From positions 1 through 64,000 of the forward strand of contig JADPRS010000004.1 of assembly GCA_015686845.1 (NCBI GenBank): a stretch of 64,000 bases of DNA. Reading direction: 5' to 3'. A program made the position numbers and the translations under genes. The notes beneath the pieces were generated by a model that was not told where the DNA came from, did not search any database, and saw only the letters and a list, made by a program, of their open reading frames with translations. This DNA comes from Lutibacter sp. B2. GTDB taxonomy: Bacteria > Bacillota > Clostridia > Peptostreptococcales > Thermotaleaceae. Below, piece after piece: positions 56,212 to 61,135 of the stretch (positions within the stretch are counted from its first letter, which is position 1; each line of letters starts with the position of its first letter).

Positions 56212-56263
56212 TTGACAAAGAGGATAAAATAAATTATACTACAAATATACCGTAGGGGGGTAT
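56212..56263 (+). promoter_or_regulatory. copA operon promoter with CsoR-type operator
   Basis: TTGACA (56212-56217) and TATACT (56235-56240), 17 bases apart. Six bases later comes ATACCGTAGGGGGGTAT (56247-56263), a G-run flanked by ATACC/GGTAT arms like CsoR operators. The operon encodes CsoR itself. Confidence 0.85.
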
Positions 56264-56286: not shown

Positions 56287-58743
56287 ATGAAATCAAAAAT
56301 AATGATTATAGATAAAATGAGCTGTGCAGCTTGTGCAAGGGCTGCTGAAAAAGCTGTAAATAAGTTAGAAGGTGTAAGTGAAGCAAGTGTAAATTTTGCA
56401 ACAAGCAAAATGAATTTAGTTTATGATGAAGAAAAAGTAACAATAGAAAATATAAAAGAGGTTATTAAAAAAGCCGGATTCGAAGCAAGAGAAGAAATGA
56501 TTGCAAAAGAAGTTTTAATACCCATAGGAGGTATGACTTGAGCGTCTTGTGCGAGAGCTGTTGATCGTGCTATCAACAAATTAGAAGGAATCATATCTGT
56601 GAATGTGAATATTGCTACGAATAAAGCAAATATACAATATGACGAAAAAATACTTAGAATATCTCAAATAAAGGCCGCTATAAAAAAAGCAGGGTATATG
56701 CCTTTAGAGATAGAGAAGAGTAAAAATATAAATGATGAGGAAGAAGTAGAAATAAAAGAAGAAAAAGCCATGAGAAAGAAATTAATATTTTCTATAGGCT
56801 TTGCACTACCCCTTCTTTTAATTGCTATGGGTCCTATGATGGGCATACATTTACCCGAAGGAATAAATCCTAAATATTCTCCACTTAATTTTGCGTTAAT
56901 CCAAATGGCTTTAGTGATTCCCATTGTCATTGCTGGAAGAAAATTTTATACTGTAGGAACAAAAGCAATCTTAAGAGGAAGTCCAAATATGGATTCATTG
57001 GTTGCAATGGGAACAGGAGCAGCCATTATGTATGGAATATATGCAACCTATAGAATTGCCCTTGGAGATACACATTATATACATGAATTATATTTTGAAT
57101 CAGGTGGGGTTATTATTGCATTAATCACATTGGGTAAATATTTAGAGGCTGTAAGTAAAGGGAAAACATCACAGGCAATAAAAAAATTAGCAGCCCTATC
57201 TCCTAAGACTGCTACTGTTATGCATGAAGATAAAGAAATAGAAATTCCTTTAGATGAGGTAGAAGTAGGAGATCAATTAGTAGTTAAGCCAGGAGAGAAA
57301 ATTCCAGTAGATGGAGAAGTAATAAAAGGAACAACATTTGTAGATGAATCCATGCTCACCGGAGAAAGTATTCCTGTAGAGAAAAAAAAAGGAGATCATG
57401 TGGTAGGAGCAAGTATTAATGGGAATGGATTCATTGTTATGAAAGCTACGAAAGTAGGAGAAGAAACAGCATTAGCACAAATTATAAAGTTAGTTGAAGA
57501 GGCTCAAGGGTCTAAAGCGCCCATTGCAAAACTAGCAGATATTGTATCATCATACTTTGTACCTGTTGTATTTGTCATTGCAACCATAGCTGCATTACTA
57601 TGGTATAGTAGCGGACAAAGTGGATCCTTTGTACTAACTATATTTATTGCAGTTTTAGTGATTGCTTGTCCTTGTGCATTAGGATTGGCTACGCCTACAG
57701 CTATAATGGTAGGAACTGGAAAAGGAGCAGAACTAGGAATTCTTATCAAGGGTGGAGAAGTATTAGAAGGTGCACATAAAATCGATACTGTTGTTTTTGA
57801 TAAAACAGGAACAATTACAGAAGGAAAACCATCCGTTACAGATATTGTAACCGTGCATGATATAAAAGAAGATTATTTATTAAAGATTTCTGCATCTGCA
57901 GAAAAGGGATCAGAACATCCATTAGGGCAAGCCATTGTAAATTTTGCAAATGAAAAAAATATAGAATTGTCAGAGATTGAAGAGTTTAGTGCAATCCCTG
58001 GCCATGGAATAGAAGTTAAAATAGAGGGACAAAATATACTTTTGGGAAATAAAAAATTAATGGTAGATAGAGAGATAGAATTATTTAATCTAGAAAATGA
58101 TTCAAGAAAATTAGCATCTGAAGGAAAAACACCTATGTATATTGCAATCAATCATAATTTAGCTGGAATCATTGCTGTAGCAGATAAAGTGAAGGAAACC
58201 AGTAAAGATGCAATTGAACAATTACAAAGGATGGGATTAGATGTAGTTATGATTACGGGAGATCATAAAGATACGGCAAAGGCCATTGCAAAAAATGTAG
58301 GAATTGACAAGGTATTAGCAGAAGTACTTCCCGAGGATAAAGCAAATGAAATTAAAAAACTACAGTCATTAGGAAAAAAAGTAGCTATGGTAGGGGATGG
58401 AATTAATGATGCACCTGCATTGGCTCAATCAAATATTGGTATTGCCATTGGTTCTGGAACGGATGTAGCCATAGAATCGGGAGATATCGTACTGATGAAA
58501 AGTGATTTAGCGGATGTAGCTACAGCTATAAAATTAAGCAAGGCGACTATTAGAAATATAAAACAAAATCTATTTTGGGCATTTTTCTATAATACTTTGG
58601 GCATTCCATTGGCAGCAGGATTTTTGTATGCATTTGGAGGGCCAAAATTAAATCCTATGTTTGGTGCAGCAGCTATGTCTTTAAGTTCAGTTTCTGTAGT
58701 AGGGAATGCCTTAAGACTTAGAAAATTTAAACCATATAAATAA
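56287..58743 (+). CDS. copA: copper-translocating P1B-type ATPase with selenocysteine in the second metal-binding domain
   Basis: An 818-residue Cu(I) exporter read through one in-frame UGA at 56539-56541 (codon 85). Two HMA domains lie at the N-terminus: the first has MSCAAC (Cys13, Cys16); the second has GGMT-U-ASC, where the usual GMTCASC has its first metal-binding Cys replaced (U85, Cys88). Then come eight membrane helices with the CPC motif (461-463), actuator TGES (358-361), phosphorylated Asp505 in DKTGT, HPLG and GDGINDAP. Homology continues without a break across the UGA. A 7-bp stem-loop follows 17 bases after it. AAGGAGG precedes ATG 56287. Standard callers would split this into an 84-residue piece and an N-truncated ATPase. 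Confidence 0.88.
56559..56578 (+). promoter_or_regulatory. candidate SECIS stem-loop of copA
   Basis: TGTTGAT / ATCAACA, a perfect 7-bp stem with loop CGTGCT carrying G at its second position. The loop starts 25 bases after the UGA, within the bacterial SECIS window. Confidence 0.72.
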
Positions 58744-58758
58744 AGAGGAGGAAGATTT

Positions 58759-58974
58759 ATGAAGAAGAAAATTATGATTGAGGGAATGACTTGTATGCAT
58801 TGTGTAGGACGTGTGAAAAATACATTAGAAGAAATGTCAGGCATAAAAGAAGTTATGGTAGACTTAGAGGGAAAAAGTGCTACAATTAAGTTAGAAAAAG
58901 ATGTTGAAGATGAGATATTAAAAGAAAAAATAGAAGATGCAGGATATGATGTAGTAGAAATAAAAACGGTATAG
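58759..58974 (+). CDS. copZ: copper chaperone CopZ
   Basis: A 71-residue HMA-domain protein that carries Cu(I) to CopA. The metal site is GMTCMHC (Cys12, Cys15) and the fold ends with IEDAGYDVV. Here both ligands are ordinary cysteines, in contrast to the second HMA domain of the adjacent ATPase. AGAGGAGG precedes ATG 58759, 15 bases after the copA stop. Confidence 0.95.
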   Translation: MKKKIMIEGMTCMHCVGRVKNTLEEMSGIKEVMVDLEGKSATIKLEKDVEDEILKEKIEDAGYDVVEIKTV

Positions 58975-58990: not shown

Positions 58991-59311
58991 ATGGAAAATA
59001 ATCTAAAAGAATGTGATGGTTGCAAGAAAGACAGACAAGGAAGTAATCGCACGGAAAAGGTAACGAAATCCTTGACTATTAGATTAAACAGAATTGAAGG
59101 TCAAGTTAGAGGCATAAAAGGTATGGTTGAAAAAGGTGTATATTGTGATGATATACTTACTCAAATTTCAGCAGTTCAATCAGCCATGAAAAGTGTAAGC
59201 AAGCTTTTATTAGAAAGTCATATGCGTACGTGTATTGTGGATAAGATTAAAGCTGGCGAAGAAGAGGCCTTAGACGAAGTATTAAAAACCATAGAAAGAA
59301 TGATGAAATAG
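58991..59311 (+). CDS. csoR: CsoR-family copper-sensing repressor
   Basis: A 106-residue all-helical repressor. The Cu(I) triad is Cys52, His77 and Cys81 (VYCDD, ESHMRTC), with the typical RLNRIEGQVRGIKGMVE second-helix start. An extra N-terminal CDGCKKD pair is common in clostridial members. It closes the copA-copZ-csoR operon and probably represses it by binding the G-rich box after the promoter. AAGGAG precedes ATG 58991. Confidence 0.94.
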   Translation: MENNLKECDGCKKDRQGSNRTEKVTKSLTIRLNRIEGQVRGIKGMVEKGVYCDDILTQISAVQSAMKSVSKLLLESHMRTCIVDKIKAGEEEALDEVLKTIERMMK

Positions 59312-59370: not shown

Positions 59371-59535
59371 TTTAAGCAACGGAAATCTCGAATGAAATGG
59401 AGAGATTTCGTTGGCGACATGAGCAATTGCGAACTTTGCAATTGTGGATTTTAAGCAACGGAAATTTCGAAATGAAATGGAGAAATTTCGTTGGCGATAT
59501 GAGCAATTGCGAACTTTGCAAGTGCGAATTTTAAG
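59371..59535. repeat. two tandem 79-80 bp repeats with conserved hairpins
   Basis: The unit beginning TTTAAGCAACGGAAAT starts at 59371 and 59450, and its first bases recur at 59530. Each unit contains a GAAATCTC / GAGATTTC stem (first copy) or GAAATTTC / GAAATTTC stem (second copy), a paired base change that preserves pairing. A CAATTGC / GCAATTG stem follows. No ORF of note is present. Confidence 0.9.
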
Positions 59536-59615: not shown

Positions 59616-60167
59616 ATGAAAAAAATACTTATTTTTGTACTATGTATCACCATGATGTTGTCCATTGTAGGATGTTCTAACAAAGCAGAAGAACAAGATT
59701 TAGGGAGTGATGATAATCCTGTAGCAGGGAAAGTTATGTCTGAGTTTACCACAAAAGACATTGAAGGTAATGAGGTAACACAAGAAATATTTAAAGACAA
59801 AAAGATCACCATGATTAATGTATGGGGAACGTTCTGTGGACCATGTATAGAAGAAATGCCTGATTTACAAAAGATTTATGAAGAATACAAAGGAGAAGAC
59901 TTTAATTTAATAGGGCTTGTTGCAGATGTAGAATTAGGAAATGATCCTAAAGAAGCTACCGAAGTAGTTAATCAAACAGGGGTAAAATATAAAAATATTT
60001 TAGTAAATGAAGTTTTAAATGAAGAAATACTTAGTAATTTTGATTATGTTCCATTTACTATTTTTGTAAATGCTGAAGGAAAGATTTTAGATACAATGGT
60101 TGCTGGATCACTAAGCTATGAAGGATATAAATCTAAAATAGATACTTTATTAAAAAATGAAAAGTAG
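59616..60167 (+). CDS. TlpA-family thioredoxin-like lipoprotein
   Basis: Extracytoplasmic redoxin. The lipobox SIVGC gives lipidated Cys20. The thioredoxin fold begins near residue 40, with active site WGTFCGPC (Cys74, Cys77) and a cis-proline region VPFTIFVNAEG. Length 183. GAAAGGAATG precedes ATG 59616. The next two genes are a CXXC micro-protein and a membrane 4Fe-4S protein; together they look like a thiol-reducing chain that passes electrons across the membrane. Confidence 0.93.
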   Translation: MKKILIFVLCITMMLSIVGCSNKAEEQDLGSDDNPVAGKVMSEFTTKDIEGNEVTQEIFKDKKITMINVWGTFCGPCIEEMPDLQKIYEEYKGEDFNLIGLVADVELGNDPKEATEVVNQTGVKYKNILVNEVLNEEILSNFDYVPFTIFVNAEGKILDTMVAGSLSYEGYKSKIDTLLKNEK

Positions 60168-60177
60168 GTAATCTGTT

Positions 60178-60309
60178 ATGAGAAAATCAAGTGTCGCTTT
60201 CATTTTAGTGAGTATAGCTTTTATGATGGCAGGGGTATATAGAGGCGAAGTTGGCATAATGTTTACGAAAGCAATCAACATATGTCTGGAGTGTATTGGA
60301 ATTGGGTAA
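60178..60309 (+). CDS. small CXXC membrane protein (CD1871A-like)
   Basis: A 43-residue protein beginning MRKSSVAFILVSIAFMMAGV, one membrane helix, followed by YRGEVGIMFTKAINICLECIGIG with a C-terminal CLEC motif. It matches the tiny CXXC proteins found between TlpA-like and 4Fe-4S genes in clostridia such as the C. difficile CD1871A region. It starts 10 bases after the tlpA stop and overlaps the next gene by 14 bases. It is short enough to be missed by gene callers. Its role as a redox relay is inferred from position and the CXXC. Confidence 0.85.
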   Translation: MRKSSVAFILVSIAFMMAGVYRGEVGIMFTKAINICLECIGIG

Positions 60310-61135
60310 ATTTAAAAGAAAAATTGTACAGATCATCACAGCTTTGGTTACCAATGCAAATTTCAAAGGATTTTTTGAAGGAAAAATATATAAAGGATCT
60401 TTAAAAAAGTCTTGTGTTCCGGGACTTAATTGTTATTCATGTCCTGGCGCAGTAGGTTCTTGTCCCATAGGTTCTTTGCAAGCCGTTATTGGAGGTTTCA
60501 AATATAAAATGTCTTTTTACATAGTAGGAATGATGATGTTAATGGGGACACTTTTAGGAAGATTTATTTGTGGGTGGCTTTGTCCATTTGGATTAATACA
60601 AGAATTACTGAATAAAATTCCTTCCCCTAAAATAAAAATACCTAAGATATTTTCATATATAAAGTATGTTGTATTAATAATATTTGTTATATTACTTCCA
60701 ATCGTATTTGTTAATGATCTAGGGATGGGAGATCCAACCTTTTGTAAATACATATGCCCAGCAGGAACCCTAGAAGGGGGTATTCCATTAGTACTTACAA
60801 ATCCTCCATTAAGGGATAGTATTGGTAACTTATTTTTCTGGAAAATATTTTTACTAATAGGAACAATTATAATGTCTATCATAACCTTTAGACCTTTTTG
60901 CAAGGCAGTATGTCCACTTGGGGCTATTTATGCATTGTTGAATCCCATTAGCGTATATCGATATGAAATTGATAAAAATAAATGTATCAGCTGTGGATTG
61001 TGTGCAAAAACGTGTAAGCTTGATGTAGAAGTTTATAAAAAACCAAATAGTTTAGAATGTATTCGTTGTGGAGAATGTATAAGTATATGTCCTCAAAATG
61101 CCATAGAAAGAAAAATGAACCTAAGAAGCAAATAA
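60296..61135 (+). CDS. membrane 4Fe-4S ferredoxin-type protein (NapH/NosR-like)
   Basis: A 279-residue protein with four or five helices. Cysteine motifs: CVPGLNCYSCPGAVGSCP near the N-terminus, CGWLCPFG, CKYICPAG and CKAVCPLG in membrane loops, and two C-terminal 4Fe-4S binding motifs (CISCGLCAKTCKLD, CIRCGECISICPQNA). It resembles NapH/CcoG-type electron-transfer proteins that feed quinol or ferredoxin electrons outward. The start is TTG 60296 with GGAG upstream, inside the CXXC gene; a second TTG at 60302 is possible. It is the likely electron source for the TlpA protein. Confidence 0.88.
   Translation: MELGKFKRKIVQIITALVTNANFKGFFEGKIYKGSLKKSCVPGLNCYSCPGAVGSCPIGSLQAVIGGFKYKMSFYIVGMMMLMGTLLGRFICGWLCPFGLIQELLNKIPSPKIKIPKIFSYIKYVVLIIFVILLPIVFVNDLGMGDPTFCKYICPAGTLEGGIPLVLTNPPLRDSIGNLFFWKIFLLIGTIIMSIITFRPFCKAVCPLGAIYALLNPISVYRYEIDKNKCISCGLCAKTCKLDVEVYKKPNSLECIRCGECISICPQNAIERKMNLRSK

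Follow-up and report, generated by a model that had tools for sequence, protein, structure and literature searches.

A copper-transporting ATPase gene with an in-frame UGA codon and a predicted selenocysteine at a metal-ligand position of its second HMA domain

The copper operon and its in-frame UGA codon

The window analysed here, that is, the whole stretch of 64,000 nucleotides of DNA, contains a copA-copZ-csoR operon whose features are compiled in Table 1. The copA frame, running from its ATG to the TAA ending at 58743, holds a single in-frame TGA, which replaces the codon of the first metal-ligand cysteine in the GGMT-U-ASC motif of the second HMA domain (HMA2), a position for which Cys homologues exist. 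A first-pass annotation of the same DNA had pointed to a UGA at this cysteine within a frame that stays open on both sides, to an intact CAAC motif in the first HMA domain (HMA1), to a CopZ with an intact CMHC encoded in the same operon, and to an apparently intact gene arrangement with a CsoR box. All of these features were recovered in the present analysis.

Table 1. Coordinates of the features of the copper operon in the window
Feature	Position	Strand	Evidence
CsoR-type operator-like box TACCGTAGGGGGGTA, upstream of copA	56248..56262	+	regex match
copA, 818-aa Cu(I)-type P1B ATPase, two HMA domains, one UGA read as Sec (predicted)	56287..58743	+	
HMA1, residues 8-67, Cys version, MSCAAC at residues 11-16	56308..56487	+	TIGR00003 stretch
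UGA codon 85, predicted Sec at first metal-ligand position of HMA2 (GMT-U-ASC)	56539..56541	+	
SECIS-like hairpin, 7-bp stem, 6-nt loop CGUGCU, loop beginning 25 nt after the UGA	56559..56578	+	
copZ, single-HMA copper chaperone, Cys version, GMTCMHC	58759..58974	+	PF00403, 65.8 bits
csoR-family metal-sensing repressor gene	58991..59311	+	PF02583, 104.1 bits

The CopA protein matched the copper-subfamily model TIGR01511 with 631.3 bits (cut-off 397) and the P1B heavy-metal ATPase model TIGR01525 with 677.9 bits (cut-off 346.25). The scores for the stricter, E. coli-type CopA model NF007952 (723.8 bits) and for NF041115 (87.4 bits) lay below the respective cut-offs of 1316 and 95, and no model specific to a Sec-containing CopA was among the best 25 NCBIfam families listed for this protein; automatic annotation may truncate such genes at the UGA. 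The protein carries CPC at position 461, YN at 768 and MSLSS at 797, the last conforming to MxxSS, and we take these three motifs to be the marks of a P1B-1 Cu(I) ATPase (CopA). Together with the neighbouring copZ and csoR genes, they suggest that the substrate would be Cu(I). Differences are most frequent at third codon positions, before as well as after the UGA, and in the comparison of the window copA with the homologous locus L097, third-position differences after the UGA amount to 348/600.

Upstream of copA, the box TACCGTAGGGGGGTA is presumably an operator of the CsoR type. Similar boxes begin 33-35 nt 5' of the matched CopA start in the homologous loci L097, L098, L099, L101, L102 and L138, and where 200 nt or more of upstream flank was available, the box expression matched 10 of 30 loci with a Sec codon and 15 of 128 of the Cys type. 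The copZ product matched the NCBIfam CopZ models below their cut-offs. A CopZ-like open reading frame was found in the flanks of 16 of 23 loci with Sec in HMA2, 2 of 8 with Sec in HMA1 and 61 of 131 Cys loci, the corresponding counts for CsoR being 11 of 23, 2 of 8 and 81 of 131, with flank lengths that vary by source; the CopZ-like frames listed near Sec loci had kept their cysteines in 18 of 18 cases.

Further downstream, a 65-nt direct repeat occurs twice just 3' of csoR (59391-59535), the copies being 92% identical and 80 nt apart. Genes for a Redoxin/TlpA-like protein (59616-60167) and a 4Fe-4S protein (60296-61135) follow beside the copper operon, and they possibly form an electron-transfer pair.

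Selenocysteine machinery and recurrence of the UGA codon

The first-pass annotation had suggested looking for selA, selB, selC and selD, and all four genes are present in the genome that harbours the window (98.4% complete, 77 contigs), where they lie together within 9 kb on contig C13. The matches for selA (634 bits), selB (384 bits) and selD (391 bits) are each above their cut-offs, and that for tRNA-Sec (selC) reached 69.7 bits against a gathering score of 47. In-frame UGA codons were also found in selD (L146, G000:C13:40242-41165) and in grdA of this genome; with a UGA in selD, Sec synthesis is itself apparently Sec-dependent. No second close CopA, and hence no close Cys-CopA, was found in this genome, the next P-type ATPase being 38% identical over the core, so that the organism seems to depend on the Sec version for this type of pump, provided that the draft assembly lacks no further copy.

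The window protein was compared with 162 homologous loci, 80 of them from genome contigs, 79 from the relatives and the class, and three more (one Sec, one Cys and the second P-type ATPase of the own genome). An in-frame UGA was present in 31 of the 162 loci, a ratio that gives no frequency estimate, since the set is non-random and took in all listed TGA rows and the Cys rows in part. The UGA lay in HMA2 in 23 loci and in HMA1 in eight, and never in both. At the two first-Cys columns, where aligned, the codons were TGT (154), TGC (71) and TGA (31), with TCC occurring twice and AAT, AAC, TCG and TCA once each. No TAA or TAG occurred at the metal-Cys columns in the 162 loci, and no UGA in any further aligned column; likewise, 13 additional rows listed for a TAA or TAG had no stop at the metal column.

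The stops remaining in the 162 alignments were all TAA, two of them C-terminal (L144 and L177) and one at column 72 (L145). In L225 and L226, as in L145, HMA2 is preceded by a TAA (columns 68 and 70, respectively) and, upstream of that, by another HMA in the same frame. These three Cys-type loci look as though a copZ-like HMA gene sat immediately upstream of a single-HMA copA, in one frame with it. In L137, L143, L144, L177, L218-L224 and L227-L230 no stop was found inside the ATPase except near its ends. One candidate Sec codon, the TGA of L182 (genome G258), was rejected as the ordinary terminal stop of the gene.

A degenerate pattern for GMT-UGA-Ala-[Ala/Ser]-Cys, which misses variants such as those of G039, G109, G119, G126 and G194, had matches in 29 of 393 genomes at the level of the order and in 5 of 398 at that of the phylum (the own genome is in both counts), and the reversed control pattern had no match among the rows listed. 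The pattern added ten loci, four of them outside the class. Downstream of the likely start codon, the available sequence of each contains a single UGA, which takes the place of the first Cys in one of the HMA domains. Eight of the ten align to CopA at 408 bits or more. The other two, L185 (34% identity over 211 residues) and L188, are truncated where their contigs end and are classed as likely CopA. The search for CopA homologues with a UGA at this column, also proposed in the first-pass annotation, thus yielded 40 further loci among the matches listed, for a total of 41 Sec loci with L185 and L188 included, in 39 or 40 genomes depending on the genome to which L047 belongs. Three of them (L199, L200 and L201) encode three HMA motifs each, of which the first contains the Sec codon and the remaining ones read CQSC, and in L138 and L139 Sec lies in the only HMA. 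Two paralogues occur in genome G134, L110 with Sec in HMA2 and L126 with Sec in HMA1. Among the relatives, selA was detected in 156 of 198 genomes and in 28 of the 28 with a Sec-CopA among the matches listed (hypergeometric p = 7e-4, kinship ignored); the scan considered the best five candidates per genome, so that at least 28 carry a Sec-CopA.

A quick tree of the ATPase core, from which the HMA domains were excluded, was built from 85 of the 162 loci, namely all Sec loci, the Cys loci scoring 900 bits or more and a single outgroup. Of its 82 inner branches 18 are open, and there are several long terminal branches, with L138 and L047 as those among the Sec rows. On this tree, Sec and Cys are related by nine changes, at least five of them forced by starred branches, compared with a mean of 25.5 for shuffled labels. 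Genes with Sec in HMA1 and in HMA2 fall in separate parts. The window copA groups with L138, near five more genes with Sec in HMA2 from its own family, further members of which carry a Cys CopA.

A SECIS-like hairpin downstream of the UGA

According to the passage on bacterial SECIS (bSECIS) elements in a 2026 review, the model element has a loop of 3-9 nt, a stem of 4-16 bp and a G in the first two loop positions, and lies 16-37 nt from the UGA (PMC13188914). The hairpin of the window (stem TGTTGAT/ATCAACA, loop CGTGCT) fits this shape, and the stem-loop with a G in its loop that the first-pass annotation had placed at bacterial SECIS distance is borne out. Its fold energy was -9.8 kcal/mol over 57 nt, a region with two helices, and -5.9 kcal/mol for the 33-nt piece bearing the hairpin, the bSECIS threshold being at most -7.5 kcal/mol. 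Against synonymous recoding the hairpin stood out (p = 0.010), and against dinucleotide shuffles it was in no way exceptional (z of 0.52 for the 57-nt region and -0.90 for the 33-nt piece). As the shuffle z-scores of the window hairpin were of no help, we relied on synonymous recoding and on Cys controls. An Rfam search around the operon returned no SECIS family; matches to mir-83 and, twice, to the L20 leader were below their gathering scores and were taken as chance.

Across the loci, a site was scored as having a hairpin if four or more base pairs formed without interruption, if G occurred among the two leading nucleotides of the loop, and if the loop started 16-37 nt after the codon and was 3-14 nt long, a range wider than the published 3-9. 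Each site was compared with 200 synonymous recodings. Values of p < 0.05 were obtained for 17 of 30 Sec sites, compared with 6 of 135 sites in Cys homologues and none of the 28 Cys-type HMAs that the Sec proteins also contain (Mann-Whitney p = 9e-13 and 1e-8, respectively, kinship ignored); the other 13 Sec sites missed this level. Hairpins of -4 kcal/mol or lower, whatever their p value, occurred at 20 of 30 Sec, 32 of 135 Cys-homologue and 3 of 28 other-HMA sites. Folding of 54-nt pieces pointed in the same direction, with mean z values of -1.47, -0.36 and -0.74 in that order. L113 had no hairpin under the stem and loop rule, and those of L127, L128 and L131 have a 10-nt loop, above the published limit of 9. 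Beyond the 30 sites with p values, L181 and the ten later-found Sec loci each have a hairpin under the rule.

Several hairpin designs were found, including GUUGAU types with the loop at +25/26 (many HMA2 sites), ACUGCC-GAGAG-GGUAGU types at +22 in HMA1, AGUGC types at +18 with a loop of 10, and UUCGAC-AGUUA-GUCGAG at +18. The stem-encoded peptide DRAIN is present in 10 of 23 Sec HMA2 domains, although these rows are related, versus 1 of 128 Cys HMA2 domains, and the stem may thus shape the protein sequence too.

Predicted decoding of the UGA and comparison with known systems

We regard it as highly probable that the gene encodes a Sec-containing CopA, in which UGA-85 would be decoded by SelB and tRNA-Sec via the downstream hairpin to give a Sec-x-x-Cys in HMA2. 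Sec insertion at this codon appears very likely because the UGA recurs, hairpins mark the Sec sites, the genome has the sel genes together with UGA-bearing selD and grdA, and no close Cys-CopA was found. Points against this reading are that the window hairpin is unexceptional in the shuffle comparison, that 13 of 30 Sec sites miss p < 0.05, that L113 lacks a hairpin and L127, L128 and L131 exceed the published loop limit, that hairpins of -4 kcal/mol or lower also occur at Cys-homologue sites, and that transport by CopA often does not require its N-terminal HMA domains, so that loss of HMA2 might be tolerated. Alternatively, a decaying gene could terminate at the UGA and restart internally from the GTG at 56599, which begins a 714-aa frame with an AGAAGGA stretch visible by eye shortly 5' of it, to make a shorter pump without both metal-binding motifs. 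We consider this highly improbable, given that the stop at the metal column is always UGA and never UAA or UAG in the examined loci, that third codon positions vary most on either side of it, that the hairpins are specific to Sec sites, and that the genome holds Sec machinery and other UGA-bearing selenoprotein genes. The probability of a sequencing error, or of a general reassignment of UGA in this genome, is close to negligible: the UGA column recurs in other assemblies, including the one- or two-contig genomes G006, G008 and G015, and UGA terminates 4 of the window's 53 open frames with 150 codons or more, so that it still seems to function as a stop. Overall, sequencing error or decay at the window copA is very unlikely.

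It is also conceivable, albeit unlikely, that the UGA of HMA2 yields two products, termination freeing an 84-residue HMA1 chaperone and selenium supply setting the chaperone-to-pump ratio. The 84-aa product would contain the whole of HMA1, 23 of 31 Sec sites lie in HMA2, frameshifting in E. coli copA sets a precedent for a short product, and the TAA before HMA2 in L145, L225 and L226 indicates that a free HMA1 occurs in those Cys loci. Against this dual output, a copZ-like frame is already present beside HMA2-Sec loci (16 of 23, versus 61 of 131 Cys loci), and in the 8 of 31 loci with the UGA in HMA1, as in L138 and L139 with the UGA inside their single HMA, termination would leave a mere scrap.

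Under the favoured reading of UGA-85 as Sec, SelB and tRNA-Sec would be guided by the hairpin 25 nt downstream, and the product would be an 818-residue Cu(I)-exporting ATPase whose membrane-proximal HMA2 bears a Sec-x-x-Cys metal site. The N-terminal HMA domains would obtain Cu(I) from CopZ, and CsoR would let go of the operon as Cu(I) rises. Such a Se/S site would be expected to bind copper differently, as the first-pass annotation had also proposed. Most likely, the selenolate at the first ligand position would act as an entry ligand or as a redox switch. We favour the former role, in which it would receive Cu(I) (or Ag(I)/Hg(II)) as a softer ligand of higher nucleophilicity and with faster ligand exchange; in the alternative role, it would be an easily oxidised and re-reduced switch. 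More broadly, we put forward as a tentative conjecture that clostridial CopA proteins repeatedly and interchangeably turn exactly one HMA into a selenolate/thiolate Cu(I) site, a tuned and probably non-catalytic metal relay or redox gate, and that termination at the UGA of HMA2 could also free an HMA1 chaperone, tying copper export to selenium supply.

Whether Sec-containing members of this family had been described was left as a question by the first-pass annotation. Passages of four papers answer it: Sec-CopA is a selenoprotein kind already in the literature, as a computationally predicted family. A Sec-containing cation-transporting ATPase E1-E2 appears in a table and in the transporter paragraph of the 2026 review, which traces it to a 2007 paper on Olavius algarvensis (PMC13188914); it is also tabulated in PMC9312934, in the GOS selenoproteome table (PMC2398784) and in Table 3 of PMC5029168, with 25 organisms and 32 selenoproteins. 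The choice of HMA domain, the single Sec per protein, the repeated switching between Cys and Sec and the Sec-tied hairpins are absent from these passages on Sec ATPases, and the literature passages, which cover few subscription journals, hold no statement of which HMA has Sec or any test of such a protein. The selenium passages of a paper on copper transporters (PMC2147054) make no mention of a Sec ATPase, and the words ATPase and copper are absent from the main text of the deep-Sep paper (PMC12013277). Almost all selenoproteins of known function serve antioxidant defence, according to the part of a 2022 review that treats them (PMC9312934). The predicted Sec of CopA would lie at a metal-handling position of a transporter that has many Cys relatives. 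A one-codon comparison of Sec with Cys in this one small domain could therefore directly reveal the merit of selenium as a metal ligand, and the 41 loci among the matches listed, with Sec in differing HMA domains, represent natural replicates.

The described Sec cation-transporting ATPase E1-E2 (example ABB15669.1) is, like the window CopA, a P1B ATPase with Sec in UxxC predicted from sequence; the comparison covers the published description, and the placement in HMA2 is that predicted for the window CopA. The families NF041115 (UxxU metal-binding (seleno)protein) and NF045683 (MerT/CopZ fusion-like heavy metal transport selenoprotein) have, by name, Sec in metal proteins of the HMA kind but, unlike the window CopA, are not P-type ATPases. 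Efficient ribosomal frameshifting takes place in E. coli copA, whose cited title names a transporter and a chaperone (passage in PMC9548414). It is likewise a recoding inside copA, and an HMA1-only product is possible for the window gene; in E. coli the event is a frameshift, whereas the window copA has a UGA with predicted Sec and a separate copZ downstream. Finally, the window CopA shares CPC, YN and MxxSS with Cys-type CopA (P1B-1; solved relatives 3j09 and 3rfu), matching 3j09 with 641 bits, and would differ from it by the replacement of one HMA ligand Cys with Sec.
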